From a virus, in the IMG/VR virus record IMGVR_UViG_3300020185_000033, positions 1 to 64,000 of that record: a DNA stretch of 64,000 nucleotides. The stretch is one strand, 5' to 3'. A model generated the notes under the pieces. It did no database searches, was not told the DNA's origin, and saw only the letters and a list, made by a program, of their open reading frames with translations. The first letter of the stretch is position 1. Every line of letters starts with the position of its first letter. The position numbers and the translations under genes are program-made. Shown here piece after piece: positions 37,857 to 62,404 of the stretch.

Positions 37857-38480
37857 TTAATTTAACTGTACTCTGACAGTATATATTATTTCTATTGTTC
37901 TGTTTGCACTCTTTTGAACTGGGTGAAATATTACATGTGTTAACAACTTACTATCCGCTGGATCTGTTGCATAACTTAGTAAACCTAGTTCGTCAAAAAC
38001 ATAAGTTCCTTCGTTAGTAGTGCTACTATCGAAGTCGTCCTGTCCCGCAGGCTGATTATAGCCTAACGTACAAGTAATTTTTAAATCTGTAAAACTAGTA
38101 CCTGTGATTATTTCTATCTTGTCTGTACTAGTATTATTACTTACAACTTTCTCATAAGTTCTACTGTACAGAGTGGCACTATTTTCAAATGATTCACTTA
38201 CCCTCGGTGCTTTGTAAATTACTTTACCTGCAGAGTCAACCGATGTTGCTCCGTTACCAAAAGCCATAAAGTGAATGTATGCACCTGCTTGGTTAGTAAG
38301 TGCATTTGCAATCATGTTAGCCATATTACCGTAGTGGATGGCGTTTCTCTTATTGATAAGTTCCTCACCGGTATCTACATCTCTAATCAGGATATGTCCT
38401 GACATCTTGATACCTGCTTGTTCGTCTATCGGCTTGTCATTTTTCATGTCAATCTCGGCTTTATCATTGCTGTTGTTCAT
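37857..38480 (-). CDS. Virion structural protein
   Basis: 207 aa from the ATG at 38480, which has GATAAATA five bases upstream; the five-codon longer GTG start at 38495 would overlap that box. It contains IHYGNMANMIANALTNQAGAYIHFMAFGNGATSVDSAG (about 48-85), a pattern I associate with conserved virion proteins of large T4-like marine phages. The rest is beta-rich (TYVFDELGLLSYA, IIYTVRV). It probably forms part of the baseplate or fibre network beside the 6342-aa protein. The exact position is unknown. Confidence 0.7.
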   Translation of the reverse strand: MNNSNDKAEIDMKNDKPIDEQAGIKMSGHILIRDVDTGEELINKRNAIHYGNMANMIANALTNQAGAYIHFMAFGNGATSVDSAGKVIYKAPRVSESFENSATLYSRTYEKVVSNNTSTDKIEIITGTSFTDLKITCTLGYNQPAGQDDFDSSTTNEGTYVFDELGLLSYATDPADSKLLTHVIFHPVQKSANRTIEIIYTVRVQLN

Positions 38481-38485
38481 ATTCT

Positions 38486-38493
38486 TATTTATC
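38486..38493 (-). promoter_or_regulatory. Late-promoter-like GATAAATA box, 5 nt before ATG
   Basis: Minus-strand GATAAATA, five bases before the ATG at 38480, in a 40-bp gap after the giant gene. If T4-like spacing holds, transcription would start at or next to the ATG. Confidence 0.6.
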
Positions 38494-38520
38494 ACTTTTC
38501 ATTATATATTGTTTTAATTC

Positions 38521-41500
38521 TTACTCAAAATTGTGCAAAAAGTCAATTATACTTACATTTGATTTAAGTACCGTACCTTTATCAGTAAGACTGCCTGCTT
38601 CTTTCTGCTCTTTATCACCTGAATCCCAACCATTAACTTCATCTATGTCAAAGGATGGTAGTGTGAAATTCTCTACCTCGTTTGAAGTAGGCTTAAATGC
38701 ACCCGCTACATTGGCATTAGCAAATGTTACATTACTATTATCTTCTAACCAACTAGAGTCAAAACCATATGTAATATTGCCTGCATCACCATCATACGTT
38801 ACGTTTGCATAGTTTACATTGGCACTAGTTACTGTTAGGCTACCATTACCATCCCAATCGTCATCAAACGGTATAGTGTCGTCAAAGATTTCAACTGGTT
38901 TAATCCAATTAAAGTCTTCCGGATCTCTGATTAACTTACCATTCGCATCACGCAATCTAATGTTCTCAGTTTCTTCACCGTTATACACATGTGCGCCTAC
39001 TTGAATAATTGTATTAGGCGTAGTACCTTTTGTTCCTCTTATAATACCAGATATAGAATTAGTGAGTGTGTTTACTTGTTCGTACTCTATTCTCTCACCA
39101 TTAATCCAAATAACTGCTCTGTCTTGCTTAGTAGCTCTCGGTAACTTACTAACATCAGCAAATATAATTTCATTATCCCAAACTTCTAGTTCTGTTGCTA
39201 CTGTTGTTAACGGTGTAACATTACGTCTGTAATATTCTGTATGGCCAAATATGTCCATGAATACCATAAAGCGTACATCTGTACTGTCTTGGCTAATTTG
39301 GACATTACCCTGTGTAGTAACATCCATTACTAGTGTTTCTAGTGGTTGTACAACTACAAGTTCTTCTGGTCTATCTGGACCGTACTGTGACTTCAAGAAT
39401 GTTACAGAATCGAAACCGTATACTGTTTGATCGTCAACTCTATAATTAACATTACCTTGTGTGTCTTCGTCAAATATGCCTATGAAGTTGTTAACTTCTA
39501 CTTCTCTATCAAACAAGCCATCGTCCCAACCAAAAGTATCAAAACCTCTTGTGTCAGTATAATGTGTTGTGGGATGAGTTCCAGGAACAACATCAGTAAA
39601 TATATTTCCGTCTAACTCTTGTCCTTGGAATGTTGCATGTACTTTGCTCTTCACTAAGTTTAGTGCTGTTGTTAAATTACCACTGTTAACCATATCAGTT
39701 ACTAAACTAATATTTGTAGTTATAGCAGTATTTGAACCTGCACCTACACCATATGCTAAATCAAATGCATTAGTTACTTCTGTACGGACTGCTGGGTTAA
39801 ACTTCCATAAACGTTCTGGTGCTGTCCACTGTAGTGAAGTATTTGATATTGAAGTATTGGAAGCAGTTTCTACAGCAACAATATTCTTAGCAATAGAAAC
39901 ATTCATAGTTTCTAGAGTTGGATCAAAACCGTCTATATACTTAACTTCTATCTTGTCACCGTTGTTTGGTAGCCCAATTGCATTATTAACATTTGCGTCA
40001 TTACTAAATGATATGAACGAGTTACCAACATCAACGGCATAATTAGTAATTGTTGCTCCGGCGCTTGTTGAAGTTTTATCAACCTTCTTGCCATTTACAA
40101 ATATCTGTAGTCTATCCGAATCTTCTACTGCAAAGTTTAAGTTAAACACAGATGCTGTTCCGTCTGCAATAATAGTTTGCACTGCACCGCCTGTGCTGTT
40201 CTCATACAATGCACCTTTAACTCTATCAAACACAATTGTTTGATCCAAGCTTCTTATTTTAGAAGGTGTAGAGCTAAAACCAGTATAGTCCTTGTCAGTA
40301 TTAAGCACCACTAAATCATCTGCATTGTTGGAATCTAATATTCTAACAGACTTTGTGTCTTCATCATAAAACGGAGGCCTATCAAAGTCAGATGTACTGC
40401 CGGACATTATTTCTACTGGTGCTTTTTTAATATCGCTATAGTTTCTAATTTTACTACTGTAAGGTTTCACTTCATTAAAGTACTCAACTGCTTTATCAAA
40501 GTTATCAATCTTAAATCCTTTAAATGGTATTAAGTCTGTTTCTTCTTTAACAATTTTCAAGTAAGTCGTCTTAAATGCCCAATCAAGTTCTCCTTGTTCT
40601 GCGTATGCATACTTTAACATTTCAAAGAAGAACTTGTTCCAATGTACTGCGTATGTGTCAACAAACACATGTTTGTAAAGCACATCTAGTATTTGTCTAA
40701 CTTCTTTACCTAATGTTAGGCTTTGTCCTGAACTGTATACACTCTTAACCCAACGTATAGTTTCATTTTCCATTGCAATTAACTTAAAGGTATCAGTTTT
40801 CTTAGTGTATTCGTAAAGTGTATACCTTGTAGAATCATTCTTCTGTACTTGTATAATACTCTTGTCTAGTACATTTTGTAATAAATCGAACTGTTTTGTA
40901 TCAGTAACCTTTCTAAGTGGCTTGTATGTATTATCGTAATATATTACAGCATTATTAGTTTTGTCTGTTCTTAGATGCTCATACCAGTTTACTCTTTCTA
41001 TATAAGAGTAGGCTGTTGGCAAGTTGTCTCTCCAATTTAAGAATGTTGATTCCATCTGTATTTGCTTGAATATGTCATTTAGAATAACAAACATTTGCTT
41101 TCTTGCTTTCTTAATATCTTTAAACATTGTTTGTCTAGGTCTAAACTTAGAGCCGTATCTTTCGGAAACACTAAGCCCGGAACCAGGTACTGCTTGATCC
41201 AATGCATTAAACCCTGCTAAACTGTCAATCAATTTAACACTTAAATTGTCTGGTATAGTTCCATCTCTATCTCCTTCGCCCGCTAATGACCAACTGCTAT
41301 GCTTTTGTGCATTTTCAGTATCCTTACGTTTAAAGTTTACACTTAATATGCTATCGTCTGTTTTAATCAATGAGCCCATGGTATTAACAACCAATCCATC
41401 AGGTGATATAATACCTGTATATGGAACTCTTTCAGCATCTAAATTCTGTAGTAGTCTGGTTATTTCAGCAACGCTTCTTTCTTTTTGGAAGTTCACTCTA

Positions 41501-44500
41501 GCCGCATCAGAAACAACTGTTAAGCCTGTTTGCCAGAAGTAATAAAACGTTTGTGGTTTTCCATTTATATCTGGGTGTACTTCCGTTATATAGTCACGTG
41601 ATGTTGTAGGTGCAGTTAAACTTTCTACCCATTCATAAATTACTACTCTACTACCTGGGAACATCTCTCCCCAATTTTGTGAGCGTTCGTAATTGTTATA
41701 GCCCAATGATCCATATGTACCTAAACCTTGCTCATACCATGTATAACGTAATGTTGATGTATCCCACCATCTCAGACCTACATCTTTTTTGCCGTATTTT
41801 ACTTTACGAGGATCGTATACAACAGGGTCTCTTTCGGTCTTAAAGTCAATTTCTTTACCAATAAATCCTGGTAGTATACCTTTAAACGGATCGTATAAGT
41901 CCACATCAAATTCTTTTTCAGCACTTGCTTCATCATATGTGAATACGTCTCTGATAAATTTAGTATCTACTAATTTCTCTTGCTGTCTTATTACCGTATT
42001 ATTTTCTAAGTATGCCCACTTACCTGTGTTTTGATAATCGTCAATCCATACGTTACTTAAATTTGAAACATCAACCTTAATGGCTCCGTTTGCATGTAAG
42101 TCATTACCGATACGTTGACTCTGTAATGCATAAGCATTAACATGCATTGCACTAACATCTGTTGCAGTAATATTGATAGGCGAAGAACCATCTAATCTTC
42201 TTAATTCGTATTTGTACAACTCACCGGATGCTACTAAGTCACCTATAGAACTACTAATACCAAATGGGTTAGTGCTCTTAAATCTAATACTCTTATTTGC
42301 ATCTGGGCCTGTTCCCGAAGCAATAGCATTACCATTTATGTCGAGTCCGTCTCCGTTAGGGCCGCCTGTCTTGTCTCTATTTCCGGACCATGCAGGGCCA
42401 CCTGAAACGACATCAATGATTGGCGGTATCTCTGGTATATATGCTCCTTCGTCTATGTTCATTTCTTTCAGCATACCAGGTTCACTGCCTTTGATATCAA
42501 AACCGTCACCTTCTTCAGTGGTGATTATAATACCTGGAAGTCCTCCGCCGGTTTCTAATGAAGCACTGAAGTATGGGAAGCCGTTAGGGTCTTTAGTACT
42601 GTGATCGTTAATATAATCTACTAGGCTTTGTTCGTAATTCTTACCTTTTTGTACACCTTCTGTTAATCCCATGTCTTGGATTGCTGTGCCTTTTTGTGTG
42701 CAATCGCCTATTAATCTTCCTGTTAAAAATACCCTTCCGCCTTTGCCTTGGCTTCTTTGTACCGGTGGAACTGATCCAACTCCCGCCGGACTAAATGCTA
42801 AACCGCCGCCAGCACTTGCCTGGCCATCGTTATTTAATTTCGAAACATGGTATTCTAACGGAACACCACTGTTAAGATCACCTGGGAATGTTTGGTATAG
42901 TCCTCTGTTTAGTATTTTTAACTCTAAAATAGCGCCGTCATCATCTACGTCTGTAACTTTAAATACTGCAACTTCTTCCTGATTAGAAGGTGCATCAGCA
43001 TTAAAAATTACTATACCTTTGGCTCTTCTGCCTTTACCAACAATAGTCACAGTTGGAGGATTATTATATACATAATTTTGACCAAACAAGCCTGTGCCGT
43101 CGTTATTTCCTGTAGGAATAGCTGGTAGACCTTGGTAATTAGTAACGCCGTCAGTCCAGTTAACTCCAATCAGTGCGCCAGTCGTTGGATCAATTTTAAT
43201 ATCACGTTCGTCAAATTCAAATCCGTAACCACTCTGCCCGGGCCCGCCAACAATAACTCTTGTACTGCCATCATTCTCATATTCGCCTGTTGCGGGATTT
43301 ATTTTTCCGTATCCAAAACCGCCTTGAGCAAAACTTATTCCGTATATACCAAGTCCTTCACCTCCACTAAATGCAGGATTACTTTGTTGACTTACTGCTA
43401 TACCGCCAACTGCTCTAAGAATATCGTCTCTCTCATACCCGGATCCATTAAAGCCCTGTGTTATAGTAGAAGGTTTTTTTCTGGCCAAACGTTGTTGTGC
43501 TGTTATAGTATTTGTTATATAATCAGTACCTGATGCTGTTGTTGACACACTACCAACTTTTACGGCTGCCGTGTTAGCATCGCTATCTGTGTCAGCTGAT
43601 ATATCTGTACTTACATTTGTTGTGCTTGTTCTAGTACCTGCAAGGGTTGTTGTCTCACCATAAGCATAATTCTTTTTATTATTAACAGTATAGTCTAGTA
43701 CTTCTTTTAATTCTCCGCCTTTGCAACCATTTCTTAAAATTATTGGATCCGGAGTGTTATCTCTCATCCTAACTTCGACACAACGTCCGCCATACCCATC
43801 ATCTATCTCTGTTACGTCGACTGCTCCACCAATCGATGATTGTTGAATAGCCGCCCTCATACTTTCCGTAGATGTTACGCCTGTTAGTGTTATTTGTGTA
43901 TTGTTAATCCAAAACGAGTCACCTGCTCTCACACTATATATAGAATGCGATGATGCAATACCGGCAGGTCCATTAGCGCCTGGATTAATCCATTTATTAT
44001 CCGCACAGAACTTAACTTTCTTGCCCATACAGTATTCGTCCATTGGTATAGATAATGCCCCTTGTGACGCTCCTACAATAAGAGGTCCGTACATTCCTGT
44101 CTTATTTTTCTTTAACAGTGAAATTGTCATTACACGTGGCTTAGGCTTTTGAGGATTACTATGCGGATTAAACGCACTGTTATCGGGTATTGGTGATTTT
44201 GTGCTTGGCACAAACGAGCCATCTGCCGCCGCAAATGACGGTCTGCCACTTAGTGGGCCTGTAGGTTGACTTCCTGAATTATTAAAGTTAGTTGCACTTG
44301 CTGTTATACTACCTTTATAAAATGATTCCTGGTTATCAAAACGTTTAACTGTGGTAGTTTGTGCGCCACCGCGAATATTTGGCTTAGTACCTAATCCTGG
44401 TCCATTACCCACCAGGTTGATATAGGCTCCTATATATGGATTAGTGAGTCCGTTATACTGTGCAACTGCTACTGGGTTAACGTGGACCTGATGACCCACC

Positions 44501-47500
44501 TGATTAACCTGATGAGTAGTACTACCAGTTTTGTTACCACTTACTGTGTTATACTGCACTGAAGTACAGCCTTGATTATTTCTTTGACTATTTCTACGTT
44601 GATTAGTATTACCACCAGAGTTACTGCCACCGCCTTGTCCATTTTCATTTCCAACACCTGCACCGCCTTGATTAGATGCGCCGCCAGTCTGGGCACCAGT
44701 ACCTTGGGAACCATTTGATTGCTCGAAGTACCAAGGATTTTGTCCTCTGTCTATTAAGAATCTATCTGCGGCCCAAAGGAACACAGACGAGCCAGTACCA
44801 CCAATACCTCTTGTTGTTTTAACTGTTATCCATCTACCGTTACCTGGTCTATAGTTAAAGAAGCATTTACCTACATTCTTTCTGCCGCCGCCGGCTGTGA
44901 TGCCGCCCATGTCCGCATAACCTGTGAGGTATCCATCACCACCACTCAGGTTTGTTTTTATTTCGTCAAATCTGTTCCTTTCTGCTGTTGTCAGTGTAGT
45001 ACAGTTTGGATTAGAAGATGTTGATGCAACGTGTCTTTGTGTATTACCTTTTGTAGTACCTTGGTATACATCCATTCTATCTGCCGCACCATACATGTTA
45101 AAGAATATGTTTAATGTTTTATTAATACTGGTGTCTGCCGCTAAGTGAAAACTTGTGATTTCAGTTGTAGGACCGTTACTATGGTACAAGTAGTAATCTA
45201 CTTCTTCAAAATCAGGTACTGGGCTTACTGAAGTATCGTCAATCACAACACTAGCAGTACCTATATCTGATAACCCTTCACTTGCTCCATTAGAGTCTGC
45301 CCCTGCAGGTGTTAGTATTAATGTTTCGCTACCTTCTGTTAAAACGTCTTCCTTTGTGACTACAGATGCAGTGCCTATCCAGTTGTTGCCGTTTGTTGGC
45401 ACCATATCAAATGTTATTGTCATTGAATCAGATAAATCACCGCCACTATCAAAGTCAGCACGTTGTACGCCTGTCATTGTGGCTGTGAGTGTTGCACCTG
45501 ATTGTAAATTTTTACCAGATACTGTAAACTCTATTCTTTCGCCATTTTCACTTACTTTACTCTTATCAGCCTGTATATTAGTATATGTCGGTACTGGGTC
45601 TAAACTTGTATCTCCTACTGCAACCGTGTCTGCTGGTCCGCCAGTAATACTACCTTTGTTTGTTGTTCCTCTTAATTTGAATTTTAATGTTTCCTGTCCT
45701 TCCGTGTTACTATCAGCAACAAATTGTACTGTTTTTGTTGCGGTACCTTTGCCGTTCCCATCAACACTAAATGTCATAGTAAATGGTGATGTTATTCCAC
45801 CTGATATATCAGTAACGCCAATGAGATCTACACTACCTGTTGCATCGACTTCAATTGTTTCGCCTGCTACAACGTTATCAGCAGTTACAGTAAATGTTGC
45901 AGATGTTCCTTCGTTAGCAACGTCTTTATTCCATAGTGCTGTGAAGGACTCTGCATAAGGCTTATAGCAACTTGCAATACCGTCTACATATCGTGTTTCT
46001 GTCTCTTTACTACATTTACCATGCTTAGGATCAGTTGCATTTTTACACTTCCATATTTGTATTTCTGTACCTGCGCCGTTATAGCCATTCGCATCGATGA
46101 AACACGACTTGCTCTGCAATTCATACGCATGTGTATGTGGTATTAAATCTGCACAATCTACATTTGCATGTTTTATTGTAAGTCCCGGCATTTCTTCAGT
46201 GACTGTTGCACCTAACTGCACATCATTAAACAATGCAATTTTACCTGTCAAAGCAGGATTATTAGGTGAGACAGTTAGTGATCCACCTACACCGTATTTT
46301 TTACCGTAATCGCTGAACTGATCTCCTAATGCACCCATTGTGCCTTTTTCAGTTCTTGTCGATGATGTTACCCATATAGTTCCATCGTCGGCTTCAATTG
46401 TTCCATCACTCATCATTGTATATGTTACGCCGTCTCGTTCCCAAGATGTGCCTACCTCTACTGACTCCCACGCACCTGTAACATGATTATATACTGATTG
46501 CTCAGTGCCCCAGCTACTGCCGCCGTCACCGTAAGTAATGTTGTCGTCTGTAAGTTGTCCACCGCCTAACGAATATCCCTGCTGGTTATTCTGCAAGTAA
46601 GTCTGTGCTTGTGGTGATACCATTGTTTGTTGGTGTGGCAATACATTATCTACAAGATTTTTTAACCCGGCTACTAATGCCTGGTTTGCAATCTCTTGTG
46701 GCGTTAGAGTGGGCTTTTCTTTCGGTTGAGAGTTTTTTGTCGTAGTTTGAATAGTATTCATTAAATCATTAAACGTGTTCTGGGGGTTTCCAGCCGTTGC
46801 TGGCTCTGGCGCTACATATCCAGGTGGTTGCTGAGGACCAAACGTTACCTTTGCTGTCGTCATAGCTGGTGCTGTACTTTTTTTCGTTGTTCCAACTGAT
46901 AAAGGCGCCGCCTTTGCACCAGGTCGTGCATCTGGTCTGCCGCCAGCGGCTTGGTATGCCGCTACAGCGTCTTTTATGTTAATGAAATTCATATTAATAC
47001 CGAAGGAGCCTTTTTTAACTACTGTACCAGCTTTGCTGTACATAGTGTCTCTGATGTCATTAGCATATTGTTCCACACTGTGCCACGGGTAAGCACCCTT
47101 AACAACATCTGCCCCATTCATTTTGATATCACCTAGGTGGTCTGCAATGAGGAATGGTATGAAGCCTGCCTTGCCGGTCAATTTGTTTGCATCTTCTCCG
47201 TGCATAAGATATTCGAATCTAGAACTATATGTTTCGCCACCTATTTGGTATGGGTGTGCAAATCCTGGATAGTCAACAACTATTGTATTTGCTGTTGGGA
47301 TATCAACTACGGTGAATGTATTATTATAATAATCAGGCTCAAACGCATTTACTGTTATTTCTTTTCCTATTAACTTGTCTGAGCCGTCTGTTGCAAATGA
47401 GTGGTCTTCTCTAGTTGTAATAACTGTGTTTGCACTCATAAATGTTGCTTCTTCATACAGTGTCATTGTGGTTTGAATTGTGGCACCTGCACTCAATGTG

Positions 47501-50500
47501 ACTGCATTTGTTAATGTAATATCTGTTTCGTTGTCGGATACGGACTCAACTTTTGTATTTGCTGGAACACCTGTGCCGCTAACATTCATTCCAATAACTA
47601 GTCTATTAGTAGTACCTACTACGCTTATAGTTGTGTTTGCTGTAACATCACGTGCCACAGTAAATTCATCTTCTATAGGTGCTAACATTGTATCCAGTAT
47701 AACAAAACTATTTGTTGTAGTGTCGAGCTTTCTTATTTTTTGTATAATAAGTTCAGGCGACATTTTATTAATTTTCACATAACCTAAATTTTCAAGTGTG
47801 GATAGATCTGCATCTGTTGTAATTTTTGTTGCTTCGTTGATTGTGAACGATAAGTTTGTTTCGTCTAAGTTACCGCCTGTGTAGGTATCAAGTTCAATAT
47901 CGAATACAACAAGATCTACAGTCTCCGCAGGAGTACCTGGAACTATCTCGCGAATTGCTTTTGCAAATTCTATTGTGTCGTTCGATGATAATGTTACTGT
48001 GTTCTTAACTGTAACATTAGCAACTTGTCCATCGCCTTTATGCCTAAACTTCAACGTATCGTTATTATTAATCACTCTGCCGTCAGCTAGAGTAATATCG
48101 TAATAATCAAATTGTGTTTCGTCCCATAAAATATTATAAGGTTCTCCCTCTGGTGTTATACCCACCGTTGTAACTGATGTAATGCCCTGTGACAACGTTA
48201 TGTCTCTTCCTGATATACTTGCTACTGTTACAGTGTCCTCTTCGGCATCTATTACACCTGTTAGTGTAATAAAGTCGCCTACACGAATATTTGATGTACT
48301 CGATAATGTAAGTGTGTTGTTTGTTGCGTTAGCACTTTCAATAAACCTTGCAGGCTCGGATCCTTCGTTGTCAAAATCGAAATTAACACTCATAACCTCT
48401 ACTGGTTCTGCTATACTTTCATGGAACAAATACATGCCCGGTTCAATTAGTTCAGGTGTTGTTACATCTACTATTGTGCCGCTTACAACACTATTTTCAA
48501 CAGTGCCTTGTAAAGGTACAGATACATTTCCTAATTTACCTACACTGTCTGTTATAAGATCTTTATTAAGAACTCGCTCTCCTCTGATATTCTTTGGAGC
48601 AAAACTGTTGCCTGCTAATTCAGTACCCGAAGCATCTTTGAATCTAACTGTTATGCCGTTAACTAAAGCGTCTGATATTTCTTCGTAACTATGACCCATA
48701 GTTGAAATGCTGTTTGGAACTGCTGTAATCTTTAATGTTGTTTTTGCTAATGAAACATTTGCACTGTCTGTGATTACATCCAATGATGAATTAGTGCCAT
48801 ATAGCCTAGATCCAACTGTAAATGTGTCGTTAGTAGTTGCGTTAACAGTGAATACTTCGCCTGCACTACCACCTAGGTTATCAACATCAAACACAATCTC
48901 TGTGCCTGTTCTAAAATCGTGTCCAGGTGAATACATTTGTACATCATAATCAATACTTGTATTGCCTGTTTTGTTTTTACCAAAGTTTATAAAACTAATG
49001 TTTGCTTTAGGCACTGTGTTAGTCATTCCGCCTAATACTGTTGTGTTAGCATATAATTGTACATCGCCAGCGCCTGTTAGATTTGCAACTTGGAATATGT
49101 TTCCATTTAAATTTGAACCGCTGTTGTCGTTAAACTTTAAATAATGTCCAATTGCAACTCCGTCTGTTGCACCATTATTAATTGTGAACGTTAACTGGTT
49201 GTTAACAATTCTCATGTCGGGGACAGCATCTACACTTCTAAAGATTGTTATGTCTGTTGTTGTAGGTACTGTTGCTCTAGCAAACTGGTATGCATGTTGT
49301 AATGCAACTGGTTCAGCACTTATAATATTACCACTTAGTTGTGGTCTAATCTCGAGAATTGAATTAACAGCTGGAATTGTATATTCGATATTGCCCATCT
49401 CAACAGATTGTTCAGCAACTTTTTCTTCGCTTACAAATCTTGTTACAGGATGGTCAACTTCTGCTTGTTCTGTTACATATATTGGGTTGCCGTCAAAGGA
49501 TACCAAGTCTTTGTATGCGTCCGATATAACGTTGTCGCCTTTAAGTGCTAATACCTGATCAAACCACTTAGTGTGGTCATACTCTGTGCTTGTATTAGCA
49601 TTATCATTGTTGTCTAGTATAATATCGGACAACTTAACATCTGCCCAAAGGAACGATGTTCCAACAGTGTTGTCGTATTCTACATACGAAATAGTTGCGC
49701 CAGTGTCTGTGAGTTTATAAACTTCAAATTCTTCGTGCTCGCCTTTTGCAAAGTGAACTGTATCGTTTACTTTTGGCAATTTGTTTGTTCTAGTAATTTT
49801 AGTAATATCAAATAAGTTTTCAAAATCATAAATGTCAAATGCTTGGTACTGTACATTATACTTGGATACATATCCTGAGTTAGGTAAAGGCGCATACTTG
49901 CTGTCTACCATGCCTACATAACTAACACTTGATGTCATAGGCCATAAGCCTTTCTCCGCCATGTCAGTAGGTCTTACTGTCAATCTTAGAGGATCATCGA
50001 CATCAATTAATATTGTTGCATCATCTTTTGAATCTGGATAAATTTCAAATGTTCTTATCTGCGTTAACTTAGCCGCTAATGCATCGTTGGCAAATACCTT
50101 AATGTTCAACGATGAACCAGGTAAGTCACCTTGGTATGAATCTTCCAAGTCAATTGTGCCACGTTCAATAATTTCTATAGTTGAATTAGGCTGTATAGGT
50201 GAACCAGGAATAGCACCACAGTCTAGGAATGTTATAGTAGATTCCCCTGAGGAAACATTACTAGTAATTGTGTATAATGCTTCTTCGCTAGTTTCTGGTA
50301 GTTTAATACCGTTAATTTCTACATCGACATGCGGATAACTGCCGTTAATAATTTGTAAATTGTCTGCGGCTATTTCATCTGTTGTTGTTATACCGTCACT
50401 AACACTTACTGGTGTAAACGTAAAGCTCTGTGAAATATTACCGGATAATAATGCGTTAGTAACAATTGTTGTTCTGCTACCTTCGTCAAATTCCCAATCA

Positions 50501-53500
50501 TGCGAGCCAGGCGGAGTACCTACAATATTACCTGTTGTAGTTGCACCGTCAACAGAAACAATAATGTCACTAAACGTTGTGCTGTTTGCAGTTTCGAAAC
50601 TGTAACGTTGTCTTGGCTGGTATCGCTTTGCAGGTAAGTTTAATGTGCTTTCTAACGTACTGCCTGCACCTTGCTCTGCTAGTGTAAAGTCATTGCCCTT
50701 AATTGTTAAGAAGAATTCTTCAGTGCCTGTACCTGCTGTTCTAGTAAACGTTGCTGAAATATTTGCACTAATTTCTGCTGTATTATTAATTGCATTAGCA
50801 ACATCTTCTACAGTAGTAACTGAGCTTAGATCAATAACAGTGTTTACATTAGAACTAAAATGATCTGTGATTAAAATATTACCAGCCGAAGTTAAATCTG
50901 CAACTGTTATGTTGCTTGTAGAAACAGCATATGGCTTCAAGAATGATGTAGTAATATTTGCTGTAAATAACTGTGCCGCAACTACTGTTACACTAGGATT
51001 AATAGTGTAACCGTACCCTGGTTCGTCTACAGTCACATCAGATATTCTTCCGTCTGTTCCGATATTAACTGTGGCTTTAGCAGTTGTGCCGCCGCCGTAT
51101 TCGAAACTACCTGGAATGTCTGCAGGAGGTGGTTCAATTTCTAAGAATGGTCTTTGATAGAATTTAGTTGTTCTATCAAGCACTTCCACTTCGTTAACTT
51201 TACTAACAATGTCTTCTGGGTAAGCAACTTGTATAAGTTGTCTTTCGTTTGTTATTTCACTCTCTGCAATTTTTAAATCTATTGTTTGGTAGTTTTCTAT
51301 GTCACCGAAGTCGCCCGCTTTAAGAGCCCATTCGTCATAAATTGCAACACTACCAGGAACAAGAACTTTGTCGCTGTTAAGTAATACTTCGATACTGTTC
51401 TTAGTACCTTTACTTCTGATCATTCCAGAATAAAAATCATACTGGTCATCTTGCGTAAGTTCAAATTCTCTTAAATATTTTCTTTCTTCATAACCGTACT
51501 GTCTTCTACTTGCTTCGTATAGTTGTTTCTCAACTGGTACATGTCCAATCTCATTATATTTGCCCATGTCGCCTGCAAGTGTATCAAAGTTTGGCTTTAA
51601 GCCGTTGTCTGTGATAATATAGCCATCTGCTGTTAATGTGCCGTTCCAATTAGCAGTACGTTTACCTTTAATTTTTATTCTACGTTGTCTTTGACTTAAA
51701 ACGTTGTCAAATATTGTATCACCAAATATAGTTTTATTTGATAATACCATTGCATGTTCAATTTCATTTGTGTATAATATTACACCGTAAATCTGTTTGC
51801 CTTCAGGTGGATTAATAGTAATCTTATTCGTATCTCTAATAATCTCGCACTCGGAAGTTTTAATTGATCTACCTTCTTGATCCAATATGCTGTACTGACT
51901 TTGGTCAACATCAATAATTTTACTTACTCTACCAATTGGTGCTGTAAACTTGACCCCAGACGCTAATGGACTTAAACTTAATGTGTTACCTGCGGCCCAT
52001 TTGCCTATGCTCCAGAACAGGAATTGCCTTCCGCTGTATAGCCAGTTATTAACGTCATTGATATCTCCGTTAAACTCGCCGAAGTCGAAACCCATTGCTT
52101 CTTGCTTTCTGCCTAAACTATTTAAGAAATCAAATACTTCGTTAACTGTATCAAGTACTGTGCCATATTCCACTTTCTTAATTGTACCTGTGCCTGTTAA
52201 GTATAATGTTGCTTCAGCGGCGCCAGTCATTGGCAATGAAGGTAGTCTCTGCCAAATTGCTGTGTCTGTTACAACACTGCCTGCAGGAGCAAACTCTTTT
52301 GCTCTATAAAAGTTATAGCCTGATTTTACTATTGAACCTATTTGATAATTTGTACTGTTGCTATAATTTGCAAATTCAACAGGTTCTCCGCCAACAGTAA
52401 CTTCTGTTGCTGGACCACTAGTGTTACTTTCTTCTATTTCAAAGAAGCGTTTTACTGAATTATAGCCGTCTATCTTGTACTTGCCGTCAGTTGTGTAAGT
52501 AATTAATACACCAGTAAAGTCATTTGTTGTGCTGTAAGGTCCTACATGCACATTTACTTCAATATCTTCTTGGGGCAATATTAAACTTGAACTGTTACCA
52601 GTTGAACTGTAACTATCACTGAACACTGTCATAGTATCTTTGTCTATGTAGCCAGCAAATTTATGACCAAGTTTGCTTATAATTGATCTGTAAGGTTTAA
52701 CAAATTCTGCTGTTGTGTTAAGACCTTGGAATTTCATAAATGCATGGATGAACTGGGTAAAGCCCACAGTATAAACTGTTTGCTCAGACGCATTAATTTC
52801 GCCGTGTATATCTACTAATTTAGTTTTAATTCTTCTCTTTGTATCTCTATCTAATAACTGCTTAGAGTTAGCAAGTCCTCTAAACGGTTTTCTCGGATCG
52901 GAGAACACACTGGCAAACTTACCAGGCTGTGCTAATAATAGCGCCTGCATAACCGCAAATGGATAACCTTCTGAGATTCTCCATGCATTTTCTACAGGAG
53001 CATTGTCTCCAAATTTCCAATTTTTATTTGTAAGTTCTGTGTTTACTGAGTATGTTGTATCTAATGTACTTAAAACAGTAAACGTTGCAAGAGACTGATC
53101 CTGGGTAGTAGCAGTACCGTTATTATTTGTACTAACAGTTCTCGGTGTTGATGCAAAACTTGGTCCTGTTGTGTATGGATATGCTGGGTTACTGTCAGCA
53201 TCCACAGTTGCAACATAGTAATATGTGCCTGCAGGGAATTCAGGAGTTATGCCGTGACGGCCATTGTATGCATCAAGATCACCAGTTGAAGAACTATACT
53301 CGTAGTCTTCTACAAACTCTCCTGTAGGCAAGCCGCCTATTGTCGATCTCGTTGTTGTTTTTAAACTGTAACTACTTTCTATTCTTTTAATGCTACTCGA
53401 AGCATTTGCTCTGTCTGAGTATCCATATGGTCCGTAAATTGGGAAACCATCAAATGCCCAACCTACTATAGGTGAATGAGCAGTTGTATTCCAGCTGTCT

Positions 53501-56500
53501 AATCCAACTGCTTGTGGGCTAGGTTGAATATATCCGTAAATGCCGTTGTTGTCAGGTGCGCCGCCGGCTGTATCTCTGCTAACTTCATTTCTATACATGC
53601 TGTTGTAAGTAAAGTTAGTGCTATCGCTGTGTGCTATACCTGAGTTAGCATTAGTAATTAATGCACCGTTAGTTGCTAGACCAATTGCAGTGTTGCTAGT
53701 TGAAGTTGCGTTTGCATAACTTGTTCCTAAACTACTAGGATCTACTCGTCCTACAAACGATTCTATTGTGTACGAATAAGATTTATCTTCTATTGTATTA
53801 GCATTATCTGACGTAGGAAAGTTGCCTACTGGGTGATTCATAACATTGTGTGTTGTTATGTTCATCACCGTGCCTACTTCCCACACACTTAACCCGTCAA
53901 CATTTAAAATTGTATCTGCATCGGCACCCGAAGTACCACTTGTGGTTGACGTCCAACTAGTTGATTTTGTTGTTGCTGTTGTGCTAATAATATTAGCAGG
54001 TGCAATCAACTCGCCACTTGCATTAACAGGTAGCTCATATGCTAATCCGATACGTCTGTACGGATTATTTTCTCTGTATCTATTGTTAGTTACATTTTCT
54101 CTGTTACCTTGCCTAATAATACCTTGTTCCAAGTCAGCCCATAAATTAACATTAGTCGAACTATAATCTGTGCCGTATGTTGTTTCCCACCATGTAGGCT
54201 TTCTAGTAAATCCTAGCATTTCCCACGGATGTGTATGAGGGCGTTCTGTGTCATAACATGATTCGAATATTCCTCTCCAGTAAGCAGGCTTAGGCGTGCC
54301 GGCATTGTAATTCCAAGTCCATACGTCGTCTTCTCTGTAGAATTCATTCTTAACAAAATCTACGTTGTTTCTTGTGATATAGTTGTTAAAGTTAGAACGT
54401 AACAATGCATAAAATTCGTCTCTGTTTCTACCTGTTGTTCTAAATCTGCCTGGTCTAATGTCTGTAACATTTAAGTCAGGTAAACTATCAGAATTCCTAA
54501 ACTGTTGTAGTGTGGCATTGTAAATTCTTTTCTCAAATTCTAACAATATAAAGTCGTGTACATCATCTAGTGCAACAGACTTACTACCATCGTGTCCTAC
54601 TACCATCTTTATAGGACTAACAAATGATGTATCAGTGATAATCTCTGGATATGTGATAGGGTACATTCCCAATGCACTAGGTGTTGAAGGTACTTGGGCA
54701 CTTTCTCTGTTAGCATCATATAGCCTAACTTTAATAGTGTTGCCTAGTGTTGGCGTGTAATTGGTTGTAAATGTAATTGTAACAACGCCATTGCTAGAAC
54801 TTACAGCATAGTCGATATCAGCACACAACAGTTTGTCAGGTGTAACACCGTCTGATTCGTATACATAAACTGTGTTGTCAATTTTTAATAAATCTAAGTA
54901 GTGCGAACAAGTGTATTCTTTTGTTAGCACATTATTAATAACAATCTTCTCTTCGATATATTTGTCACCGAATGCTATCATGAATGTATCATCAAATACA
55001 TTCTTACCTTGGTTATATGCTATAACATTTTCTATTACTAACTCTAGCATGTCGCCGTAGGACATAGCACTGTAATCATTGCCATTTACAAAGTTAACAA
55101 TCTCTTTCTTTAATCTGTTTTTATACTTGACGTATTCTTCAGCAACAAAATCCATACTGTCTTTGATATTAAATTTATCGTTGCTGAATAAGAATGCTGA
55201 CAACCTTAAATCATCGTCAGTTTGTAAAATCTTGTCTGCATATTTTAATTCTGTTTTTATGTCTGCAGAGTTGTTTGCACCTAGAGAATCACCTTTTGCA
55301 TCTTCTTGGAGCTCTAATAAGTTTTTAAAATGCTCTAAATATTCGGGCTGTGATATAGAAAGAATATCAGCATTATCTAAGTTCGAATGCCAACTGCCTG
55401 GAACGTGATATCTGCCATCTGTGTTTGCATTAATAAAGTAACCAGTTTTTGTTTCAGTAAATATATCAATTATATCAAATTTGCTAAATGTAAAACTGCT
55501 AAATTTAATAGCAATTTGTTCACTGTCGTATGAGAACAGTTCTGTTCTAATACCGTTAACATACACTCTAATACTTTTTTCTACTAAGCCTGCAATATCA
55601 CTATCTGAGTTTGTAGGTACTGCTGATATATGGTACAATCTTCTAGAGGTTTCGAAATCACTATCGCTTATGACATACCTGTCTTCTACACGTTGCTGTA
55701 GTTTGTCTTCTAATGGTCTCCATGCCGTATCGTATGTTACATCATTATTATTTCTCTTATAATATATGTAGCCTTTAATTTGAGACTTAGTTGTTCCGCC
55801 AAAAGGAACATACGATTCAAAATAATCATCTATATGGTTTGTAAAGGATATTTCACTAAAGTTATTAAAGTTTTTATACTCTAACGGAAATCCTAAAACA
55901 GTATCTTCTGTAGTATTTACTTTCGCGGGTGTATACCCGAAGATATTATTACCTGTAAATGTACTGTTAGGGTACACTGCATCATCGTCAAGTCTAACTT
56001 TGTTACTGTCGTACATAACAAATTCAATTGGTGTATTAATTTTTGTCTTTTGTTGTCCTGCTACCCAGTCAGTGCCTGACCAGTGGTATTCTATACCCTG
56101 ATACCTAGCACCAAACTTAATTGTTATTACATCACCTTTTTGTGCAACGTAAGGTATAAAACCTACATCACCATCTAATAATCCTGCAGGGCTACTTTCG
56201 TCTGCCAGTCTAGATAATGCTACATTGCCTGAACCGTCATCATTAATAACGTATGCATATTGGGAAATAGACGCACTGTCACTTGCAAGTAGTATTGTAT
56301 TACCGGGTTGTAGTGTTACTGAATCAATTGACGCTCCTGTTGGACGTCCGACTACTTCGGATTGCAGATAACCTTCAGTACTGATATCTACTGCAAATTT
56401 ACCTGTAGTACCAAAATTGTACAATTCGATATTTCTTTCAAATTCTATAATAGGCCTTACTGCACGTTTGGTTTTTGGAGGTAATTGATCTCCGACATCT

Positions 56501-57549
56501 AAGAAATTATTCTTATGATGCCAAAAGTTAATTCTACTCCACACATTGTTATCAGTTGCTCCACGCTCCATAATAATATAGTCGGGATTTTCTTGAGTGT
56601 TGTCACTGTCAAAAGGCTCAACATCAAAAGCGCCTTCTCCGCCTACAGTATATACAAGTTGTGTGCCTAAAGGTGCAACATAACCGCCCCACAGTGCAAT
56701 GCCTGTATCTGGGTCTGTTTGGTCAAATGTATAGTCCGGGGTTGGCCAATTATTTTGTCCTGCGGTTGAAACATAATTTTCAACACCTGCTAAACCACCA
56801 CTGTTAAATTCTGTTGTGCCGTCTGGTACAGTTGCAACGAGGTCGTCATCACTATCAATTATAGTTTGGTCATACGGTATATAATCTTCAGTACTGAACA
56901 CAGTTGCAAAGTTTTGTTCTTTGTCGTGTAGTATAATACCTTCGCCCACGCCTTCTACAATAAATCGTTTTTCGTTCTTAAATCTATTTGGTATAACATA
57001 GTTTCCAGAAAAGGTAACAACCATTCCTGTTTTAAACTCAACTCCGCTCGGTGTTGTAAATGACTTTTTACCTACAATATCTTTTTCAATGTTTACAGGG
57101 TTTGTATCTGTACCTTCTACAATAACTGGTGTTGGACCGTTTGGGCTCCAAAAATACTCTTGGTAGTTAATGAATTTATCAATACTTATTGGTGGTAAGA
57201 ACGTATACGCTTCGGTATCAAAGATACTATTTTGATTTAGTGTATTAACACCATAACTTTTAAGTACATTAATATAGTCCTCATAGAACATGATATTTGT
57301 ACTTTTACCCGTTGTTTGGTCAATTGAGCTTACTGCTGGTTCTAAACTAAATTTATCTCTGTCAGCAGTTGGTTGCAAAATATATGTATCTCTTGCATCT
57401 AATAAGTCTTCTTCGCGCCTGCCCACATAAGCAGACATTGACTCAACGTTTGCTTTACTAAAAAGTTGCTCTACTGTAGTATCGAAAAAATTCTTTATTA
57501 CAGGAGTCTGGTGAATTACCGGAAGTTTTGTATATTTTTTATCAGCCAT
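38521..57549 (-). CDS. Giant virion structural protein (6342 aa)
   Basis: An uninterrupted 19-kb frame following gp6 by 5 nt, in the position of T4 gp7/gp8. The N-terminal part (1 to about 1350) includes INYQEYFWSPNGPTPV and HPWEMLGFTRKPTWW (about 1105-1125). A YHYH-like domain lies at about 1355-1462 (GWAFDGFPIYGPYGY, YNGRHG, GTYYYVAT, YPYTTGP). Beta-rich repeats with PGYGYxxxPxVTV-type motifs follow. Residues of about 3550-3690 are Pro/Gln/Thr-rich linker; a five-cysteine patch is at about 3796-3865; two Calx-beta-like modules (ending GDTSLDPVP and DDTSVSPVP) are at about 3865-4110; a Gly/Asn-rich linker is at about 4280-4360. The C-terminal quarter (LRWWDTSTLRYTWYEQG, NKFFFEMLKYAYAEQGELDWAFKTTYL, NEVKPYSSKIRNYSD) is typical of large marine myophage structural proteins. 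Confidence 0.9.
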   Translation of the reverse strand: MADKKYTKLPVIHQTPVIKNFFDTTVEQLFSKANVESMSAYVGRREEDLLDARDTYILQPTADRDKFSLEPAVSSIDQTTGKSTNIMFYEDYINVLKSYGVNTLNQNSIFDTEAYTFLPPISIDKFINYQEYFWSPNGPTPVIVEGTDTNPVNIEKDIVGKKSFTTPSGVEFKTGMVVTFSGNYVIPNRFKNEKRFIVEGVGEGIILHDKEQNFATVFSTEDYIPYDQTIIDSDDDLVATVPDGTTEFNSGGLAGVENYVSTAGQNNWPTPDYTFDQTDPDTGIALWGGYVAPLGTQLVYTVGGEGAFDVEPFDSDNTQENPDYIIMERGATDNNVWSRINFWHHKNNFLDVGDQLPPKTKRAVRPIIEFERNIELYNFGTTGKFAVDISTEGYLQSEVVGRPTGASIDSVTLQPGNTILLASDSASISQYAYVINDDGSGNVALSRLADESSPAGLLDGDVGFIPYVAQKGDVITIKFGARYQGIEYHWSGTDWVAGQQKTKINTPIEFVMYDSNKVRLDDDAVYPNSTFTGNNIFGYTPAKVNTTEDTVLGFPLEYKNFNNFSEISFTNHIDDYFESYVPFGGTTKSQIKGYIYYKRNNNDVTYDTAWRPLEDKLQQRVEDRYVISDSDFETSRRLYHISAVPTNSDSDIAGLVEKSIRVYVNGIRTELFSYDSEQIAIKFSSFTFSKFDIIDIFTETKTGYFINANTDGRYHVPGSWHSNLDNADILSISQPEYLEHFKNLLELQEDAKGDSLGANNSADIKTELKYADKILQTDDDLRLSAFLFSNDKFNIKDSMDFVAEEYVKYKNRLKKEIVNFVNGNDYSAMSYGDMLELVIENVIAYNQGKNVFDDTFMIAFGDKYIEEKIVINNVLTKEYTCSHYLDLLKIDNTVYVYESDGVTPDKLLCADIDYAVSSSNGVVTITFTTNYTPTLGNTIKVRLYDANRESAQVPSTPSALGMYPITYPEIITDTSFVSPIKMVVGHDGSKSVALDDVHDFILLEFEKRIYNATLQQFRNSDSLPDLNVTDIRPGRFRTTGRNRDEFYALLRSNFNNYITRNNVDFVKNEFYREDDVWTWNYNAGTPKPAYWRGIFESCYDTERPHTHPWEMLGFTRKPTWWETTYGTDYSSTNVNLWADLEQGIIRQGNRENVTNNRYRENNPYRRIGLAYELPVNASGELIAPANIISTTATTKSTSWTSTTSGTSGADADTILNVDGLSVWEVGTVMNITTHNVMNHPVGNFPTSDNANTIEDKSYSYTIESFVGRVDPSSLGTSYANATSTSNTAIGLATNGALITNANSGIAHSDSTNFTYNSMYRNEVSRDTAGGAPDNNGIYGYIQPSPQAVGLDSWNTTAHSPIVGWAFDGFPIYGPYGYSDRANASSSIKRIESSYSLKTTTRSTIGGLPTGEFVEDYEYSSSTGDLDAYNGRHGITPEFPAGTYYYVATVDADSNPAYPYTTGPSFASTPRTVSTNNNGTATTQDQSLATFTVLSTLDTTYSVNTELTNKNWKFGDNAPVENAWRISEGYPFAVMQALLLAQPGKFASVFSDPRKPFRGLANSKQLLDRDTKRRIKTKLVDIHGEINASEQTVYTVGFTQFIHAFMKFQGLNTTAEFVKPYRSIISKLGHKFAGYIDKDTMTVFSDSYSSTGNSSSLILPQEDIEVNVHVGPYSTTNDFTGVLITYTTDGKYKIDGYNSVKRFFEIEESNTSGPATEVTVGGEPVEFANYSNSTNYQIGSIVKSGYNFYRAKEFAPAGSVVTDTAIWQRLPSLPMTGAAEATLYLTGTGTIKKVEYGTVLDTVNEVFDFLNSLGRKQEAMGFDFGEFNGDINDVNNWLYSGRQFLFWSIGKWAAGNTLSLSPLASGVKFTAPIGRVSKIIDVDQSQYSILDQEGRSIKTSECEIIRDTNKITINPPEGKQIYGVILYTNEIEHAMVLSNKTIFGDTIFDNVLSQRQRRIKIKGKRTANWNGTLTADGYIITDNGLKPNFDTLAGDMGKYNEIGHVPVEKQLYEASRRQYGYEERKYLREFELTQDDQYDFYSGMIRSKGTKNSIEVLLNSDKVLVPGSVAIYDEWALKAGDFGDIENYQTIDLKIAESEITNERQLIQVAYPEDIVSKVNEVEVLDRTTKFYQRPFLEIEPPPADIPGSFEYGGGTTAKATVNIGTDGRISDVTVDEPGYGYTINPSVTVVAAQLFTANITTSFLKPYAVSTSNITVADLTSAGNILITDHFSSNVNTVIDLSSVTTVEDVANAINNTAEISANISATFTRTAGTGTEEFFLTIKGNDFTLAEQGAGSTLESTLNLPAKRYQPRQRYSFETANSTTFSDIIVSVDGATTTGNIVGTPPGSHDWEFDEGSRTTIVTNALLSGNISQSFTFTPVSVSDGITTTDEIAADNLQIINGSYPHVDVEINGIKLPETSEEALYTITSNVSSGESTITFLDCGAIPGSPIQPNSTIEIIERGTIDLEDSYQGDLPGSSLNIKVFANDALAAKLTQIRTFEIYPDSKDDATILIDVDDPLRLTVRPTDMAEKGLWPMTSSVSYVGMVDSKYAPLPNSGYVSKYNVQYQAFDIYDFENLFDITKITRTNKLPKVNDTVHFAKGEHEEFEVYKLTDTGATISYVEYDNTVGTSFLWADVKLSDIILDNNDNANTSTEYDHTKWFDQVLALKGDNVISDAYKDLVSFDGNPIYVTEQAEVDHPVTRFVSEEKVAEQSVEMGNIEYTIPAVNSILEIRPQLSGNIISAEPVALQHAYQFARATVPTTTDITIFRSVDAVPDMRIVNNQLTFTINNGATDGVAIGHYLKFNDNSGSNLNGNIFQVANLTGAGDVQLYANTTVLGGMTNTVPKANISFINFGKNKTGNTSIDYDVQMYSPGHDFRTGTEIVFDVDNLGGSAGEVFTVNATTNDTFTVGSRLYGTNSSLDVITDSANVSLAKTTLKITAVPNSISTMGHSYEEISDALVNGITVRFKDASGTELAGNSFAPKNIRGERVLNKDLITDSVGKLGNVSVPLQGTVENSVVSGTIVDVTTPELIEPGMYLFHESIAEPVEVMSVNFDFDNEGSEPARFIESANATNNTLTLSSTSNIRVGDFITLTGVIDAEEDTVTVASISGRDITLSQGITSVTTVGITPEGEPYNILWDETQFDYYDITLADGRVINNNDTLKFRHKGDGQVANVTVKNTVTLSSNDTIEFAKAIREIVPGTPAETVDLVVFDIELDTYTGGNLDETNLSFTINEATKITTDADLSTLENLGYVKINKMSPELIIQKIRKLDTTTNSFVILDTMLAPIEDEFTVARDVTANTTISVVGTTNRLVIGMNVSGTGVPANTKVESVSDNETDITLTNAVTLSAGATIQTTMTLYEEATFMSANTVITTREDHSFATDGSDKLIGKEITVNAFEPDYYNNTFTVVDIPTANTIVVDYPGFAHPYQIGGETYSSRFEYLMHGEDANKLTGKAGFIPFLIADHLGDIKMNGADVVKGAYPWHSVEQYANDIRDTMYSKAGTVVKKGSFGINMNFINIKDAVAAYQAAGGRPDARPGAKAAPLSVGTTKKSTAPAMTTAKVTFGPQQPPGYVAPEPATAGNPQNTFNDLMNTIQTTTKNSQPKEKPTLTPQEIANQALVAGLKNLVDNVLPHQQTMVSPQAQTYLQNNQQGYSLGGGQLTDDNITYGDGGSSWGTEQSVYNHVTGAWESVEVGTSWERDGVTYTMMSDGTIEADDGTIWVTSSTRTEKGTMGALGDQFSDYGKKYGVGGSLTVSPNNPALTGKIALFNDVQLGATVTEEMPGLTIKHANVDCADLIPHTHAYELQSKSCFIDANGYNGAGTEIQIWKCKNATDPKHGKCSKETETRYVDGIASCYKPYAESFTALWNKDVANEGTSATFTVTADNVVAGETIEVDATGSVDLIGVTDISGGITSPFTMTFSVDGNGKGTATKTVQFVADSNTEGQETLKFKLRGTTNKGSITGGPADTVAVGDTSLDPVPTYTNIQADKSKVSENGERIEFTVSGKNLQSGATLTATMTGVQRADFDSGGDLSDSMTITFDMVPTNGNNWIGTASVVTKEDVLTEGSETLILTPAGADSNGASEGLSDIGTASVVIDDTSVSPVPDFEEVDYYLYHSNGPTTEITSFHLAADTSINKTLNIFFNMYGAADRMDVYQGTTKGNTQRHVASTSSNPNCTTLTTAERNRFDEIKTNLSGGDGYLTGYADMGGITAGGGRKNVGKCFFNYRPGNGRWITVKTTRGIGGTGSSVFLWAADRFLIDRGQNPWYFEQSNGSQGTGAQTGGASNQGGAGVGNENGQGGGSNSGGNTNQRRNSQRNNQGCTSVQYNTVSGNKTGSTTHQVNQVGHQVHVNPVAVAQYNGLTNPYIGAYINLVGNGPGLGTKPNIRGGAQTTTVKRFDNQESFYKGSITASATNFNNSGSQPTGPLSGRPSFAAADGSFVPSTKSPIPDNSAFNPHSNPQKPKPRVMTISLLKKNKTGMYGPLIVGASQGALSIPMDEYCMGKKVKFCADNKWINPGANGPAGIASSHSIYSVRAGDSFWINNTQITLTGVTSTESMRAAIQQSSIGGAVDVTEIDDGYGGRCVEVRMRDNTPDPIILRNGCKGGELKEVLDYTVNNKKNYAYGETTTLAGTRTSTTNVSTDISADTDSDANTAAVKVGSVSTTASGTDYITNTITAQQRLARKKPSTITQGFNGSGYERDDILRAVGGIAVSQQSNPAFSGGEGLGIYGISFAQGGFGYGKINPATGEYENDGSTRVIVGGPGQSGYGFEFDERDIKIDPTTGALIGVNWTDGVTNYQGLPAIPTGNNDGTGLFGQNYVYNNPPTVTIVGKGRRAKGIVIFNADAPSNQEEVAVFKVTDVDDDGAILELKILNRGLYQTFPGDLNSGVPLEYHVSKLNNDGQASAGGGLAFSPAGVGSVPPVQRSQGKGGRVFLTGRLIGDCTQKGTAIQDMGLTEGVQKGKNYEQSLVDYINDHSTKDPNGFPYFSASLETGGGLPGIIITTEEGDGFDIKGSEPGMLKEMNIDEGAYIPEIPPIIDVVSGGPAWSGNRDKTGGPNGDGLDINGNAIASGTGPDANKSIRFKSTNPFGISSSIGDLVASGELYKYELRRLDGSSPINITATDVSAMHVNAYALQSQRIGNDLHANGAIKVDVSNLSNVWIDDYQNTGKWAYLENNTVIRQQEKLVDTKFIRDVFTYDEASAEKEFDVDLYDPFKGILPGFIGKEIDFKTERDPVVYDPRKVKYGKKDVGLRWWDTSTLRYTWYEQGLGTYGSLGYNNYERSQNWGEMFPGSRVVIYEWVESLTAPTTSRDYITEVHPDINGKPQTFYYFWQTGLTVVSDAARVNFQKERSVAEITRLLQNLDAERVPYTGIISPDGLVVNTMGSLIKTDDSILSVNFKRKDTENAQKHSSWSLAGEGDRDGTIPDNLSVKLIDSLAGFNALDQAVPGSGLSVSERYGSKFRPRQTMFKDIKKARKQMFVILNDIFKQIQMESTFLNWRDNLPTAYSYIERVNWYEHLRTDKTNNAVIYYDNTYKPLRKVTDTKQFDLLQNVLDKSIIQVQKNDSTRYTLYEYTKKTDTFKLIAMENETIRWVKSVYSSGQSLTLGKEVRQILDVLYKHVFVDTYAVHWNKFFFEMLKYAYAEQGELDWAFKTTYLKIVKEETDLIPFKGFKIDNFDKAVEYFNEVKPYSSKIRNYSDIKKAPVEIMSGSTSDFDRPPFYDEDTKSVRILDSNNADDLVVLNTDKDYTGFSSTPSKIRSLDQTIVFDRVKGALYENSTGGAVQTIIADGTASVFNLNFAVEDSDRLQIFVNGKKVDKTSTSAGATITNYAVDVGNSFISFSNDANVNNAIGLPNNGDKIEVKYIDGFDPTLETMNVSIAKNIVAVETASNTSISNTSLQWTAPERLWKFNPAVRTEVTNAFDLAYGVGAGSNTAITTNISLVTDMVNSGNLTTALNLVKSKVHATFQGQELDGNIFTDVVPGTHPTTHYTDTRGFDTFGWDDGLFDREVEVNNFIGIFDEDTQGNVNYRVDDQTVYGFDSVTFLKSQYGPDRPEELVVVQPLETLVMDVTTQGNVQISQDSTDVRFMVFMDIFGHTEYYRRNVTPLTTVATELEVWDNEIIFADVSKLPRATKQDRAVIWINGERIEYEQVNTLTNSISGIIRGTKGTTPNTIIQVGAHVYNGEETENIRLRDANGKLIRDPEDFNWIKPVEIFDDTIPFDDDWDGNGSLTVTSANVNYANVTYDGDAGNITYGFDSSWLEDNSNVTFANANVAGAFKPTSNEVENFTLPSFDIDEVNGWDSGDKEQKEAGSLTDKGTVLKSNVSIIDFLHNFE

Positions 57550-61966: not shown

Positions 61967-62338
61967 TTAAATCTCTCTGCTATCCTGTGTGTATTCCACA
62001 AGCAGGGTTTCTTCATCTAGAAAAGGCTTAAGAGTTAATTGAACTTGCACTCTAATTGTATGATCAAGCACTGTAGTAAAAATTGATTGAACATTGATCC
62101 TCGGATCTTTAGTGCATATTCTTATAACTTCGTCTTTAACTTCTTGCTCTACATATGAATCTAAAGGATTCATAATAATATCATAAATAGTAGTACCAAA
62201 CTTAGGACGCATTACTCTCTCGCCTCGTCTAGTGTACAATTCGTTCAAAAGGTCAATCTTCACTACTTCACCATTAGTAACGGTGTAAGGAGGTCTAATT
62301 TTTCCTATTGTACTAAAGCCTTTATATATGTTTGCCAT
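61967..62338 (-). CDS. gp25: Baseplate wedge subunit gp25
   Basis: 123 aa from the ATG at 62338 (MANIYKGFSTIGK); a GTG five codons upstream overlaps the promoter box. The GPW/gp25 family signature is clear: LLNELYTRRGERVMRPKFGTTIYDIIMNPLD, followed by EVIRICTKDPRINV. Length is close to T4 gp25 (132). gp25 anchors the sheath initiation site on the baseplate wedge. GATAAATA ends five bases before the ATG. It heads the structural operon gp25-gp6-giant protein. Confidence 0.95.
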   Translation of the reverse strand: MANIYKGFSTIGKIRPPYTVTNGEVVKIDLLNELYTRRGERVMRPKFGTTIYDIIMNPLDSYVEQEVKDEVIRICTKDPRINVQSIFTTVLDHTIRVQVQLTLKPFLDEETLLVEYTQDSREI

Positions 62339-62343
62339 ATCAA

Positions 62344-62351
62344 TATTTATC
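62344..62351 (-). promoter_or_regulatory. Late-promoter-like GATAAATA box, 5 nt before gp25 ATG
   Basis: Minus-strand GATAAATA five bases upstream of the gp25 ATG. It begins the structural operon and faces a plus-strand promoter in the same divergent gap. Confidence 0.65.
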
Positions 62352-62404
62352 ACACTTAGTTAAAACTAGTTTTAATACAGCCTAAAAAGGCACCAAAAAA
62401 AAGG

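Follow-up and report, generated by a model that had tools for sequence, protein, structure and literature searches.

The window, a 64,000-nucleotide stretch of viral DNA from an IMG/VR fragment of 75.8 kb, carries on its minus strand a gene for a giant virion structural protein of 6,342 aa (38521..57549), recognized from its reading frame and its orthologues. Its start comes 5 nt downstream of the stop codon of a gp6-like baseplate wedge subunit of 1,469 aa (57555..61964, minus strand; phrog_10646, 1019 bits), which is in turn preceded by a small baseplate wedge subunit of 128 aa at the gp25 position (61967..62353, minus strand; phrog_261 and phrog_43), while a conserved 212-aa gene (37857..38495, minus strand; phrog_11259) comes after the giant gene. 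This order of small wedge subunit, gp6 and giant gene is the same as in phages of the RaK2/PA5oct type. Among the six jumbo-phage records that we inspected in detail, the giant gene directly follows a gp6-like gene in all six and a small wedge-type gene stands before gp6 in five, with a very long chain there instead in SCTP-2; an ORF of ~200 aa after the giant gene is also found in PA5oct, SCTP-2, Phosso, and Vibrio 2.275.O. Farther along the same strand, positions 6688-28963 are occupied by a dense cluster of radical SAM/SPASM genes, in which an aminotransferase, a fatty-acid desaturase, and a carbamoyltransferase are encoded as well. The cluster looks like an island for modification or biosynthesis, and in Atu_ph07 and Phosso, too, radical SAM genes are found close to the giant gene. 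A 1,524-aa protein encoded at 1849-6423 (minus strand) matched no PHROG and, at the cut-off, no Pfam family.

The giant frame runs from ATG to TAA with 0 internal stops over 6,342 codons (19 kb), a length expected of a chance open frame with a probability of ~1e-162 at the base composition of the window. GC content by codon position is coding-like throughout (0.24-0.29 at the third position), and the other five frames contain between 179 and 783 stops across the gene. A promoter scan gave results near chance, and an NCBIfam search returned no match. Intact, full-length orthologues of 6,327, 6,361, and 6,289 aa were found on three independent IMG/VR contigs, aligned over residues 1-6342 at 60-72% identity, and a fourth, truncated at its 3' end by the end of the contig, is 89% identical over 5,348 of its 5,389 aa. 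More distant IMG/VR relatives have uninterrupted frames of 5,403 to 7,187 aa. Three other distant relatives, from genome contigs and at only 25-28% identity (L186, L187, and L188), lie in metagenome bins labelled as an uncultured bacterium, an Endomicrobia MAG, and a Gammaproteobacteria MAG; they are probably jumbo-phage contigs that ended up among bacterial sequences, and they led to no host assignment. For the closest pair of orthologues, dN/dS was 0.08-0.43 in each 400-aa block covered, with higher values at aa 3600-4400, which points to purifying selection along the full length of the gene. The sequence-only reading had taken this frame as one uninterrupted, true gene, a view that these results uphold, and had named an assembly error joining several genes as the outcome that would overturn it. 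Since independent full-length orthologues exist, the gene cannot be an assembly join; colinear, uninterrupted frames on many contigs from different samples and purifying selection along the whole gene both argue against one. A single base of difference between two relatives (G017 and G016) yields a stop in one copy and speaks for such an error, the chance of which we nevertheless consider negligible. The contigs of these two relatives (L119 and L120) are near-identical, with 7 differences in 23.8 kb, and the substitution at position 20002 of the L119 locus that creates the stop within the giant gene is either a nonsense variant or a sequencing error.

The protein belongs to a family already known from jumbo phages. 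PHROG 10938 ("virion structural protein") matches both its N-terminal and its C-terminal parts, so that the marine myophage structural motifs previously noticed at the two ends are real, and tblastn recovered homologues in Pseudomonas phage PA5oct, Agrobacterium phage Atu_ph07, Sinorhizobium phage Phosso, Salicola phage SCTP-2, Klebsiella phage RaK2, Vibrio phage 2.275.O, and many Rak2-like phages. Two members of this family have been detected in virions by mass spectrometry: the record of the PA5oct gene carries an ESI-MS/MS note, and CBB_236, which lies directly after the gp6 of phage CBB, was identified in CBB virions from 21 peptides with 7.72% coverage (PMC5259590). By analogy with these relatives, the protein of the window is likely to be present in the virion as well, and its initial description as a virion protein is borne out at the level of the family.

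Anchoring the protein by BLAST to marine relatives and to the named jumbo phages revealed a conserved core of ~3,200 residues, made up of the N-terminal ~2,190 aa minus one insert and the C-terminal ~1,150 aa. From the N-terminus, the chain consists of an N-terminal module (aa 1-586; 55792..57549), core block 1 (aa 587-1186; 53992..55791), an insert with a YHYH domain (aa 1187-1511; 53017..53991), core block 2 (aa 1512-2189; 50983..53016), a variable insert of 3,000 aa (aa 2190-5189; 41983..50982), and a C-terminal core (aa 5190-6342; 38524..41982), all on the minus strand; both core blocks were placed from BLAST anchors, the variable insert from anchors and dN/dS, and the C-terminal core from PHROG and BLAST matches. 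The counterpart of aa 590-1186 measures 588-597 aa in marine relatives and PA5oct, that of aa 1512-2100 is 588-590 aa long in every marine relative and in PA5oct, and that of aa 5190-5440 about 250-285 aa. The second insert (aa ~2190-5190), by comparison, is ~200 aa long in PA5oct, RaK2, and Vibrio 2.275.O, 1,481 aa in Atu_ph07, roughly 1,800-3,000 aa in most marine relatives, and 4,068 aa in G028. With core lengths near-fixed and the middle ranging from ~200 to 4,068 aa, the extra length has therefore been added mainly at one place, which is also the fastest-evolving and least conserved part of the protein, where identity falls and dN/dS climbs. Growth of the gene by tandem-repeat expansion was considered and rejected, as no tandem repeats were found in it and a BLAST search of the protein against itself detected no self-similarity. 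In a sister clade (G028 and G030; L131 10001-24429 and L135 10001-24507, respectively), the N-terminal ~587 residues are encoded by a separate gene of 789/815 aa, followed by a gene of 7,187/7,162 aa, and the junction consists of a TAATG stop/start overlap with GGAGG just upstream. This natural split indicates that aa ~587 is a true module boundary and that the chain is modular.

The first insert contains a YHYH domain (PF14240) at aa 1282-1452, with a Pfam score of 126.6 bits against a cut-off of 25. In the named jumbo phages, the matching interval is short, ~10-20 aa in those cases where an anchor was available on each side, and the insert is therefore missing from PA5oct, SCTP-2, Atu_ph07, RaK2, Vibrio 2.275.O, and Phosso. 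YHYH proteins have been predicted to be metal-dependent hydrolases on the basis of conserved histidines, the proposed metal ligands (PMC7824862, a review). The tetrad reads YYYV here, and YCYF, YSYF, YAYF, and the like in cyanophages, and the other histidines of the phage copies are not constant. Because the tetrad is not kept and the other histidines vary, a binding or structural role appears likelier than catalysis for the phage copies.

Within the variable insert, Pfam detected no domain in the window's protein, adhesin and Calx-beta domains included. An AlphaFold2 model of aa 3840-4680 had a mean pLDDT of 55.3, with folded parts mostly at 65-85, and Foldseek identified in it two tandem Calx-beta-like (Ig-like) domains (aa 3863-4106; 45232..45963, minus strand), with NCX1 CBD12 as the best match (E 4.6e-8, prob 1.00). 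Superposition of the pair with VIA gave a Z of 8.5 over 219 residues at 12.3 A rmsd, so each domain matches while their mutual orientation differs; the likeness to NCX1/Calx CBD12 is one of predicted fold, at ~15% identity, and concerns one module rather than the whole protein. Among viral proteins, those that match the insert model in structure include lectin-like proteins of phages and virion proteins. A Calx-beta fold can also be found in domains that act simply as spacers. Low-complexity linkers lie at aa ~3560-3700 and 4280-4470. Inserts elsewhere in the family carry a GLEYA adhesin domain (G028; 8.6e-7) or Big_9 and cadherin-like domains. In core block 1, a predicted beta-sandwich at aa 862-950 (54700..54966, minus strand) resembles phage tail and fiber docking domains: VIA matched it to a P1 baseplate chain, Carin-1, the N-terminus of T7 gp17, and CBA120 TSP4 with Z values of 7-8.9, and nearly all of its 18 best matches are phage tail, neck, or fiber chains. 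Pfam gave no match for aa 862-950, and since the local pLDDT is about 50-70, the assignment of a T7 gp17-type docking fold is tentative. Sequence searches against solved structures with aa 1-1000, the A1 profile, the middle region, and the YHYH region returned nothing meaningful. The suggestion that adhesin modules are included in this chain is thus matched by the tandem Calx-beta-like folds and the YHYH domain, while the accompanying proposal that it joins several baseplate functions is plausible, and the fission at aa ~587 supports modularity.

The position of the giant gene invites comparison with T4, in which gp6 is followed by gp7 and gp8, and the sequence-only reading had equated the two slots. 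The shared position after gp6 stands, but no homology to gp7 or gp8 was detectable. T4 gp7, the baseplate wedge initiator, is six times shorter (1,032 aa), and comparison of three core profiles with it in hhalign gave probabilities of 0.0-0.2, against 0.1-0.3 for reversed controls. A model of aa 1-1190 was too poor, at a mean pLDDT of 39.6, for the lack of a gp7 match in it to carry any weight. Domains of gp8 (PF09215) and gp9/10 (PF07880) were found neither in the 340-kb relative G016 nor in PA5oct, RaK2, Atu_ph07, or SCTP-2, while the positive controls, T4 and one cyanophage, were matched. This pattern agrees with a giant chain that may take over peripheral wedge roles. A fusion of T4 gp7 and gp8 was rejected, as neither gave a profile signal. 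Six cyanophages also hold chains of 4,067-6,817 aa in the slot after gp6, among them Syn19_088 (6,483 aa, cluster T4-GC969), the P-HM2 protein (4,454 aa, annotated gp7), and ACG-2014d gp071 (6,817 aa), the last of which means that the size of the window's protein is not exceptional. These chains, assigned to PHROG 701/2885, occupy the same slot as the window's protein, are of similar size, and share with it the YHYH domain as well as a GxGY beta-repeat. The T4-GC969 cluster is named as a virion structural protein in a passage on those identified by experiment (PMC3037559).

One reading of these similarities is that the giant protein is a true gp7 orthologue, that is, a wedge initiator that has diverged past sequence recognition and been enlarged by insertions. 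The exact position after gp6 in the RaK2/PA5oct lineage, cyanophages, and T4 is consistent with this, as are the YHYH and beta-repeat modules that it shares with cyanophage chains, and T4 gp7 itself diverges too much to fall into a single cluster (PMC3037559); cyanophage annotators have assumed as much, with labels such as "gp7" in P-HM2 and "baseplate wedge initiator" in Bellamy. Against it, the T4 gp7 profile scores equal those of reversed controls, and in profile comparisons the cyanophage chains lack core homology to the giant protein, aligning with it at the YHYH and beta-repeat modules only. A study of pelagimyophages further held gp7 to be absent in marine T4-likes and suggested VrlC as its substitute (PMC7029224). 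We regard orthology to gp7 as a serious possibility, if a doubtful one.

The putative docking fold at aa 862-950 and the beta-rich insert could instead suggest that the protein forms a tail fiber or whisker and is no part of the wedge, and tail whiskers are present in relatives such as CBB (PMC5259590). Yet the giant gene is consistently linked to those for gp6 and the small wedge subunit, its product has a large conserved core, and tandem repeats are absent, all of which makes a fiber or whisker unlikely. A polyprotein, cut after translation into several virion proteins, seems more improbable still: fission at aa ~587 identifies at least one junction that tolerates separation, and many domains are strung along a single chain with low-complexity linkers, but neither a protease domain nor a cleavage site was identified, and the chain stays fused in other lineages, at up to 6,539 aa.

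Taken together, we consider it reasonably probable that the giant protein is a baseplate-wedge-associated scaffold of a T4-related marine jumbo phage, equipped with fiber-docking and surface-binding modules. The conserved core, translated directly after gp6, would probably assemble with gp6 in each of the six wedges and form a peripheral scaffold at which fibers dock, a role played in T4 by gp7 and its partners. Two insertion points would carry exchangeable, outward-facing modules: the YHYH module, which separates core block 1 from core block 2, and a chain of beta-domains of ~3,000 aa, which separates core block 2 from the C-terminal core and includes the tandem Calx-beta-like folds. Both inserts probably form loops that extend from the baseplate and touch the host surface, where they may bind receptors, and they are perhaps stabilized by calcium. 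In a bolder and rather unlikely version of this scaffold, one giant molecule per wedge position would replace T4 gp7, gp8, and gp9/10, with the 3,000-aa insert serving as an exchangeable, built-in receptor-binding organ. If so, host range would evolve by swaps of modules within one baseplate protein and not by swaps of fiber genes.

The giant family reveals at which sites, and in what way, a very large phage protein gains length, namely around a fixed core with two insertion points and one natural split junction. The boundaries between core and inserts provide concrete limits for expression, structural, and host-range work on giants that databases list only as "virion structural protein". The nearest known giants are PA5oct gp355, Atu_ph07 gp180, RaK2 ORF070w, CBB_236, SCTP-2 gp140, Vibrio 2.275.O_424, and Phosso 294. 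Alignment to other phage giants, proposed earlier as a check, revealed a colinear core shared with the PA5oct/RaK2/Atu_ph07 type, at 22-39% identity (up to 45% in one short piece) across the N- and C-terminal parts. Unlike the window's protein of 6,342 aa, however, the named jumbo-phage giants measure 3,326-4,555 aa, do not have the YHYH insert, and have a second insert of ~200-1,500 aa in place of 3,000, with RaK2 carrying the smallest member of the family. As judged from these comparisons, the protein described here is an enlarged member of the known PHROG 10938 family rather than a new category or a size record, single chains longer than its own being encoded by both sister loci with the split gene.
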